This document shows positions 53,454 to 55,786 of a DNA stretch of 64,000 nucleotides, one piece after another. Position 1 is the stretch's first letter, and each line of letters opens with the position of its first letter. Where the stretch lies: NCBI GenBank assembly GCA_002749065.1, contig PDTX01000003.1, positions 1 to 64,000 on the forward strand, read 5' to 3'. Source of the stretch: Bacteroidia bacterium (lineage in GTDB: Bacteria; Bacteroidota; Bacteroidia; Bacteroidales; CAJPTX01). A model generated the notes under the pieces. The model worked only from the letters and a program-made list of their open reading frames with translations, did no database searches and had not been told where the DNA came from. A program made the translations under genes and the position numbers.

Positions 53454-53468
53454 GCGGGGCGGCTCGCG

Positions 53469-53500
53469 TTTGCATATCTGGAGACTTATCCCTACCTTCG
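53469..53500 (+). promoter_or_regulatory. Bacteroidota-type promoter of a candidate structured RNA
   Basis: TTTG (53469-53472), 20 nt, TACCTTCG (53493-53500). Confidence 0.75.
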
Positions 53501-53504
53501 CGGC

Positions 53505-53690
53505 ATGATTGAATGGGGTTTGACATGTACGCGCCCCGGTATCTTTTCGCCGGGAGTCAGCTGCAGAACCCCTTTTTTTTTGTTCTCATGGCCCGGTCGG
53601 GTAGCCTTACACCCTGGGTCATCCCCCATTGACCACTTCGTAAAGCCCCCTAGCCCCGCTGCTCGTAGCGCTGCTAGGGGCTTTTTCATG
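53505..53690 (+). ncRNA. Candidate structured small RNA or terminated 5' leader upstream of yigZ
   Basis: Consensus promoter; closing helix AATGGGG-tt-TGAC / GTCA-tc-CCCCATT (53512-53524 with 53618-53630); internal hairpins; ends in a strong terminator; no convincing ORF. Confidence 0.55.
53642..53686 (+). terminator. Intrinsic terminator immediately upstream of yigZ
   Basis: AAAGCCCCCTAGC...GCTAGGGGCTTT stem (one bulged C), then TTC. Confidence 0.85.
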
Positions 53691-53707
53691 CGTGGAGGTT
53701 TGGCCTG

Positions 53708-54307
53708 ATGGCGGCGCTGGACTACCGTACGATAGCGGCCCCCTGCGAGGGGCTGTACAAGGACCGGGGCTCGCGCTTCCTGGCCTACGCGCTGCCCGCG
53801 GCCTCGGTTGAGGTGGCCATGGCGGAGGTGGCCCGCCTGCGGGCGCAGCACCACGCGGCCCGCCACTGCTGCTACGCGTACGTCCTGGGCGCGGAGGGGG
53901 ATGACTCCCGGGCCAACGATGATGGCGAGCCCAGCGGCTCGGCCGGTCGGCCCATACTCGGCGTGTTGCTCTCGCGGGAGCTGCGGGATGTGCTGGTGGT
54001 CGTCATCCGCTACTTCGGCGGCATCAAGCTGGGCGTGCCGGGCCTGATTGCGGCCTACCGCGGCGCGACCGAGGATGCGCTGGACCAGGCGGAGGTGGTG
54101 GTTCGGACGGTGGAGCGCCACTACGCCCTGCGCTTCGACTACGGGGTGCAGCACGAGGTGATGGAGGTGCTCAAGCGGGTGGAGGCCCGGGTGGAGGGAC
54201 AGGACTACGGCGCGGACTGCCGGATGCGGGTGGCCTGGTCCCTGGCCATGGATGATGAGGCCTGCCAGCGGCTCGAGAAGATTTGTGGAATTGTGGCCGT
54301 GGAGTAG
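53708..54307 (+). CDS. YigZ/IMPACT family protein
   Basis: DDGEPSGSAGRPILGVL, VVVIRYFGGIKLGVPGLIAAYRGA. Confidence 0.93.
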   Translation: MAALDYRTIAAPCEGLYKDRGSRFLAYALPAASVEVAMAEVARLRAQHHAARHCCYAYVLGAEGDDSRANDDGEPSGSAGRPILGVLLSRELRDVLVVVIRYFGGIKLGVPGLIAAYRGATEDALDQAEVVVRTVERHYALRFDYGVQHEVMEVLKRVEARVEGQDYGADCRMRVAWSLAMDDEACQRLEKICGIVAVE

Positions 54308-54373
54308 CCCCGATGGGTGGCTCGCCGGTCGTTTTGTGTGTGAATACGGAGTGTACAAACGAAAGGTAGATTT

Positions 54374-55291
54374 ATGAAAGGGAAAAGCTTAGTTTCGATT
54401 AATGACCTCACCAAAGAGCAGCTCGTTGGCATACTGGACGTCGCGGAGGAGTTCGAGCGCAACCCCCGTCAGCCCCTGCTGGAGGGGCACGTGGTGGCGA
54501 CGCTCTTCTTCGAGCCCTCCACGCGAACGCGCCTGAGCTTCGAGAGCGCGGTGAACCAGCTCCGCGGGCGGGTGATAGGCTTTTCCGATGCGTCCTCGTC
54601 CAGCACCTCGAAGGGCGAGTCGCTCAACGACACGATACTGACGGTGTCCAACTACGTGGACCTGATCGTCATGCGGCACCCCATCGAGGGGGCGGCCCGG
54701 CTGGCCAGCGAGGTGGCCCCCGTGCCGATAGTCAACGCGGGCGACGGGGCCAACCAGCACCCCTCGCAGACCATCCTCGACCTCTACAGCATCCGCAAGA
54801 CGCAGGGCACGCTCGACGGCATCACCATCTGCATGGTCGGCGACCTGCGCTACGGCCGCACGGTGCATTCGCTGCTGCAGGCCCTCTCGCACTGGAACAC
54901 CAAGTTCGTGTTCATCGCCCCGCCCGAGCTGCGCATGCCCGAGGAGTACCTCCGCCTGCTCGACCAGAAGGGTCTGCACTACGAGGAGCACAGCACCCTG
55001 GAGGACCACATCGCCGAGGTGGACATCCTCTACATGACCCGCGTGCAGCAGGAGCGCTTCTCCGACCCGCTGGAGTACGAGCGCGTCAAGAACGTCTACA
55101 TCCTCCGGGCCAGCATGCTCGAGGGGGCCAAGCCCAACATGCGGGTGCTGCACCCCCTGCCCCGCGTCAACGAGATCGCCATGGACGTGGACAGCACCCC
55201 CTACGCCTACTACTTCCAGCAGGCCCGCAACGGGGTGTACGCCCGCCAGGCCATCATATCCACCATACTGGGCAAGCGGGAAATCAGGTAG
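54374..55291 (+). CDS. pyrB: Aspartate carbamoyltransferase catalytic subunit
   Basis: [44 protein letters not shown]. Confidence 0.98.
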
Positions 55292-55321
55292 CCAAATCAT
55301 CACAGCAAGGAAACACAAGGA

Positions 55322-55786
55322 ATGGAAGCGACAAGGAAAGAGCTAATCGTCAGCGCGATAGAGAACGGCACGGTGATAGACCACATCCCGGCCGACAAGG
55401 TATTCAAGGTCATTGACATCCTGGGCCTGCAGGGGATGGGCAGCCAGATGACCATCGGCGTCAACCTCGACAGCCGGACCATGGGCAAGAAGGGCATCAT
55501 CAAGATTGCCGACAAGTTCTTCGAGCCAGAGGAGGTCGACCGCATCGCCCTGGTGGCCCCCCACGCCAAGCTCAACATCATACGGGGCTACCGCGTGGAG
55601 CACAAGGAGCAGGTCGAGGTCCCGGCCCAAATCGTGGGCATCGTCAAGTGCATCAACCCCAAGTGCATCACCAACGTGCAGGACGTGACCCCCAAGTTCG
55701 TGGTGGAGAGCACCAGCCCCATGCGCCTACGCTGCGCGTACTGCGACAAGGTGTCGGGGCAGGAGCAGATTTTGGAGTCAATCTAG
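55322..55786 (+). CDS. pyrI: Aspartate carbamoyltransferase regulatory subunit
   Basis: NGTVIDHIPADKVFKVIDIL; zinc cysteines CINPKCITN and LRCAYCDK. Confidence 0.97.
   Translation: MEATRKELIVSAIENGTVIDHIPADKVFKVIDILGLQGMGSQMTIGVNLDSRTMGKKGIIKIADKFFEPEEVDRIALVAPHAKLNIIRGYRVEHKEQVEVPAQIVGIVKCINPKCITNVQDVTPKFVVESTSPMRLRCAYCDKVSGQEQILESI

Follow-up and report, generated by a model that had tools for sequence, protein, structure and literature searches.

The purC-yigZ intergenic region

The analyzed window comprises the 64,000 nucleotides at positions 1 to 64000 of contig C15, from a 1.32-Mb assembly (G000) that is 74% complete and has a G+C content of 64%. The gene order phoH, purC, yigZ, pyrB, pyrI is backed by family matches in a profile search; the scores of phoH and yigZ fall under the curated cutoffs, yet their E values are 1e-40 or better. 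The intergenic region between purC and yigZ extends from 53454 to 53707, and this region and the genes that follow it contain these features:

53469-53500, plus strand: predicted promoter, TTTG-N20-TACCTTCG, of the type read by the Bacteroidetes primary sigma factor
53505-53708, plus strand: 67-aa open reading frame (ORF), codon score -34.8 in total and -0.51 per codon, no family match
53512-53630, plus strand: possible long-range closing stem, AATGGGG/CCCCATT, with arms at 53512-53518 and 53624-53630
53513-53632, plus strand: putative 39-codon ORF, MGFDMYAPRYLFAGSQLQNPFFFVLMARSGSLTPWVIPH, in which the T9 run reads as FFF and whose stop lies 10 nt 5' of T2
53515-53581, plus strand: predicted intrinsic terminator T1, hairpin at 53515-53572 followed by T9 at 53573-53581
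53588-53622, plus strand: middle hairpin, ATGGCCCGG...CCTGGGTCAT, -15.2 kcal/mol
53643-53686, plus strand: predicted intrinsic terminator T2 with a T5 tail, -23.2 kcal/mol, 21 nt 5' of the yigZ ATG
53708-54307, plus strand: yigZ (IMPACT family), the gene 3' of T2; TIGR00257, E value of 1e-40, under the curated cutoff
54374-55786, plus strand: pyrB and pyrI, codirectional and 3' of yigZ; TIGR00670 and TIGR00240, above the cutoff

An earlier note on this DNA described a consensus promoter upstream of yigZ, and the string was located at 53469-53500. By its sequence, this promoter is real. Crude gene calling over the whole genome yielded 1056 genes and 598 upstream regions, and genome-wide the pattern TTTG-N17-23-TAnnTTYG occurs in such regions 42 times in the sense orientation and 12 times in the antisense orientation, with about 2 occurrences in shuffled sequences. 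The strict pattern is likewise enriched in the window (4 sites versus 0.16 expected). Because the TAnnTTTG box sits at -12 to -5 (PMC9723704), transcription is predicted to start near 53505. A strict promoter search of the 21-nt gap between T2 and the yigZ ATG returned no match.

A single terminator had been described ahead of yigZ, but there are two, T1 having been overlooked. T1 is the stronger of the pair (-25.3 versus -23.2 kcal/mol): its stem, GGGGTTT/GAACCCC, encloses an inner CCCGG/CCGGG hairpin, and none of 400 shuffled sequences folded equally well, compared with 3 of 400 for T2. The 1.32 Mb contain just four A/T runs of at least nine, this T9 included, and several terminators of a sister genome are built in the same style, with stems ending in CCCC and T7 to T9 immediately after. 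The inner CCCGG/CCGGG hairpin and the T9 tract that the earlier note pointed out are both present, but the tract is the tail of T1 and not a mere tract inside an AGAAC/GTTCT hairpin. T2, the terminator that had been recognized, is real, and the yigZ ATG does lie as close behind it as had been claimed. A transcript from 53505 is predicted to end at about 77 nt (T1) or, if it gets past that point, at about 182 nt (T2). While T2 is still incomplete, its 5' arm can alternatively pair with the loop strand of the middle hairpin (53595-53609 with 53641-53655), with a predicted probability of about 0.8 to 0.98 in the truncated RNA.

The first ~125 nt of the transcript were originally proposed to close on themselves. 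The 7-bp match AATGGGG/CCCCATT is perfect, but 7-bp stems whose arms lie more than 60 nt from each other arise in 23 of 300 shuffled sequences (8%), and those with arms more than 95 nt apart arise in 6 of 300. The closing stem and T1 are mutually exclusive, since both use the same 5' arm, GGGG. By the time RNA polymerase makes the 3' partner of that stem, T1 is already complete. Energetically the two folds are on a par (-42.8 and -42.5); the ensemble prefers the T1 stem, with pairing probabilities of about 0.6 for the local GGGGTT/AACCCC stem and about 0.37 for the closing stem. The rod-like form that adds TGAC/GTCA pairing is weaker (-40.2 versus -42.8). When T2 is left out, the body folds no better than shuffled sequences (z of -1.5 and -1.2); with T2 included, the whole reaches a z of -3.1.

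The 67-aa ORF is very probably not a gene, in agreement with the earlier view that it is noncoding. Its codon usage is anticoding (-0.51 per codon, compared with +0.43 to +0.57 for neighboring genes), and its ATG coincides with the predicted +1; on the same two grounds, it was rejected both as a gene and as a pyrL-like leader. The 39-codon ORF has a codon score above those of about 96% of open intergenic stretches and far below those of real genes. It matched no family in a profile search, and no ribosome site is visible for its start, which lies about 8 nt from +1.

Comparative searches

The earlier note recognized no known SRP, tmRNA, RNase P, or riboswitch core. An Rfam scan of the whole window and a further one of the region, with E values of ≤10 admitted, gave no credible match; one hit within the region, to sX13 (13.5 bits, E value of 2.6), was taken as chance. 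The sole same-genus genome compared (G001) is 68% complete, and its yigZ contig, PDRH01000064 of the "Bacteroidetes bacterium DOLZORAL124" metagenome-assembled genome, begins at codon 6 of the gene. A search of this genome for similar DNA returned nothing beyond matches of 16 to 18 nt, one of which falls inside a chemoreceptor gene. Its purC ends in an unrelated terminator, which is followed by a chemoreceptor gene, with no promoter-terminators unit there.

A covariance model built on T1 and the middle hairpin, when run against 295 Bacteroidales genomes, recovered itself and one chance-level match (20.5 bits, E value of 0.18). Homologs with covariation, as would be expected of a conserved structured noncoding RNA of the Bacteroidales, thus appeared neither in these genomes nor in the sister genome, and the sequences that precede yigZ in other families bear no resemblance to the one here. 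The power of these comparisons is limited but not nil: for another leader, an identical search recovered a stretch of 118 nt with 90% identity. The proposal of a structured RNA is weakened by the lack of conservation in the sister genome and across the order but stands unrefuted, given that G001, the one genome of the genus available for comparison, is so incomplete and that its yigZ contig begins inside the gene.

Two candidate counterparts in the sister genome were rejected. A TTTTTCATG tail common to both had pointed to homology of T2 with the terminator of the sister purC, but the alignment was unsupportive and the 9-mer occurs 12 times in the genome. The region before the sister yigZ was sought through CCCC-T7 patterns near contig ends, where the two hits proved to be a shared unrelated repeat. 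Contigs C20 and C86 of that genome end identically over about 98 nt (L155:1-98 and L156:1-98), and these shared ends probably mark the border of a repeat at which the assembly broke.

The sister genome and members of several other families preserve the order yigZ-pyrB-pyrI, as judged by tblastn of the neighbors. Among E. coli pyr gene queries, which were run to seek a shared leader, pyrD alone was recovered. Searches for carB (carbamoyl-phosphate synthase large subunit) found it in neither G000 nor G001, both of which are incomplete assemblies; pyrB and pyrI are kept in the two genomes despite this.

Promoter-terminator units in the same genome

Intergenic units that combine a strict promoter with a good terminator number 12 in this genome: six contain tRNA genes (the sixth on C14), one is a trpB leader, one is the yigZ-upstream locus, and four have no assignment. 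Since tRNA genes and true attenuators both show the promoter-terminator architecture here, architecture alone cannot decide between them. Two of these units serve as yardsticks:

L110:2390-2562 (G000:C2:42391-42562), minus strand: trpB leader, a ribosome-type trp attenuator; sister copy at L175:822-1000 (G001:C24)
L081:3929-4000 (G000:C15), minus strand: tRNA-Arg gene served by a promoter of its own; a gap of 40 nt separates its terminator from tyrS

In both genomes, the trpB leader has a promoter, a conserved terminator, and trpB downstream. Its leader peptide carries tandem Trp codons (MGKRRNLHLGWWRSSHCKVVS, then stop, in this genome and MVQAQGIYFGWWRSLHCKVVS, then stop, in the sister genome), and its stem is kept between the genomes despite two substitutions, C-G to T-A and G-C to G-U, one of which is compensatory. 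Rfam offered only Trp_leader, below threshold (13.7 bits, E value of 4.7). This conserved attenuator indicates that the genus uses such terminated leaders, and it is the stronger finding of the two in the genome. The yigZ-upstream locus shares with it the promoter type and the arrangement of a terminated leader ahead of a biosynthetic gene, whereas the WW leader peptide, the conservation in the sister genome, and the kept stem of the trpB leader are not matched by the evidence at yigZ.

The tRNA-Arg unit had been considered as a terminated leader of tyrS before it proved to be a tRNA gene. Two other promoter-terminator units were observed. One, which matched nothing in Rfam or in the sister genome, is about 170 nt long, ends in T8, and lies 5' of a membrane protein gene (L092:6958-7140, G000:C12). 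The other, for which a search of the sister genome gave no match, is about 120 nt long on the minus strand, has a perfect 12-bp terminator stem, and lies 5' of an RND-type transporter gene (L084:18804-18923, G000:C15:238804-238923).

A possible terminated leader of yigZ and the alternatives

The explanation that we tentatively prefer is that the promoter and the T1/T2 pair form a prematurely terminated (attenuated) leader of yigZ, and perhaps of yigZ-pyrB-pyrI; the weights given to this and to the other readings are judgments and were not computed. The locus presents a promoter, then intrinsic terminators, and then a same-strand gene that lacks a second promoter. Because the 21 nt that separate T2 from the yigZ ATG leave no room for a promoter, read-through into yigZ would be expected, and a terminated leader is the most economical reading. 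Also counted in favor of a leader are that the promoter motif is enriched across the genome and well matched at this site, that both terminators exceed chance, that the yigZ-pyrB-pyrI order is kept within the genus and elsewhere, and that the genome has a clear terminated leader before trpB. Flavobacterium psychrophilum is reported to have structured 5' regions and ones that encode leader peptides (PMC9723704).

According to this model, a short transcript would start near 53505, and RNA polymerase would reach T1 first, giving an RNA of about 77 nt, and T2 next, giving one of about 182 nt. Entry into yigZ, and possibly into pyrB-pyrI, would be limited to polymerases that get beyond T1 and T2, and the short RNAs would be by-products of the terminated leader. 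One possibility is that termination is relieved by a ribosome on the 39-codon ORF; such a ribosome would mask the T1 5' arm and end translation beside T2.

Several observations argue against a leader. With T1 starting at about +11, most transcripts may stop short of T2 and yigZ, and leak-through from purC could account for the transcription of yigZ. No homolog was recovered, and hence neither covariation nor a conserved ORF, and the sister genome is without such a unit after purC. Moreover, the tRNA-Arg terminator 40 nt before tyrS indicates that a free RNA gene can adjoin a coding gene this closely. The terminated leaders, 5' untranslated region-derived small RNAs (sRNAs), and intergenic sRNAs of other Bacteroidetes (PMC7366714, PMC9723704) resemble the locus in having a Bacteroidetes promoter, a short noncoding transcript, and an intrinsic terminator before a gene. 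Unlike these, the yigZ locus has two successive terminators and no homolog found. A working attenuator here would represent nucleotide or translation control exerted through premature termination in a Bacteroidales lineage that has received little study; on the evidence of one genome, the locus is an ordinary promoter-terminator unit.

The earlier note left a choice between a free ~180-nt sRNA, 6S-like in size, and a terminated yigZ leader. This pair holds up, since a good promoter precedes the terminators and no gene lies between them, but its 6S-like part fails. The next-best explanation after a leader, though a rather doubtful one, is a free-standing gene, equipped with a promoter and terminators of its own, for a trans-acting sRNA of about 77 and/or 182 nt; yigZ would then be transcribed by leak-through. 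A promoter and an intrinsic terminator without a gene between them are the hallmarks of the validated intergenic sRNAs of B. thetaiotaomicron (PMC7366714), the locus displays both, and tRNA genes fill 6 of the 12 promoter-terminator units of the genome; however, conservation is absent from the searches of the sister genome and the order, and the structure of the body is no greater than chance.

It is unlikely that T1 and T2 are simply a tandem pair ending the phoH-purC operon, with the promoter lying between the operon and the terminators to no regulatory consequence. Two or more good terminators do occur in 27 of the 197 intergenic strands of the genome, and the sister purC likewise ends in a terminator, but the promoter, which belongs to a set of just 42 strict matches in sense upstream regions, sits 5' of both terminators, so that a terminated transcript is expected.

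The short ORF and the downstream genes invite comparison with the pyrBI attenuator of E. coli, and a putative UTP-sensing attenuator of that type, in which low UTP would cause a pause at U9 and a ribosome on the 39-codon ORF would block T2 and switch on yigZ-pyrB-pyrI, is improbable. The layout is comparable to that of the E. coli pyrL leader: a U-rich tract lies within a short ORF, a terminator lies just before the first gene (here 10 nt from the ORF stop), and pyrB-pyrI lie downstream. Ribosomes near a stop codon repress a terminator that follows closely (PMC4824070). Here, however, the U9 tract comes directly behind a terminator stem, where a pause should favor termination, which is the wrong direction, and the ORF has no visible ribosome site and a start only about 8 nt from +1. 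The pyrL ORF runs through its terminator, whereas the 39-codon ORF stops before T2, and yigZ intervenes ahead of pyrB. In several relatives, a promoter-like sequence or a terminator separates pyrB from yigZ; in addition, neither genome of the genus, both of them incomplete, yielded carB, and comparative support is absent. Slightly less credible still is a more specific version, namely, a double-terminator, translation-coupled UTP sensor for Bacteroidetes pyrimidine genes, in which the nearly leaderless 39-codon ORF would prevent T1 and suppress T2 after the U9 pause and which would have originated independently of the enterobacterial pyrBI attenuator.

A 6S-like, RNA polymerase-binding RNA is highly improbable: its size (~180 nt) and the lack of any other 6S candidate in this 74%-complete genome speak for it, but the closing stem rivals T1 at equal energy and forms later, the preferred fold is branched or contains T1 instead of being a rod with a closing stem and a central bubble, no conservation was seen, and 6S RNA, 6S-Flavo, and Bacteroidales-1 (RF00013, RF01685, and RF01693), which are alike to the locus only in approximate length and in neither sequence nor structure, gave no match in the region at E values of ≤10 or genome-wide.

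Downstream of yigZ, the yigZ-pyrB gap at 54308-54373 is conserved in the sister genome, with the pattern TTTGTG...GAATAyGGwGTGTACAAA...AAAGG. This is not a standard promoter but possibly a regulatory site of pyrB.
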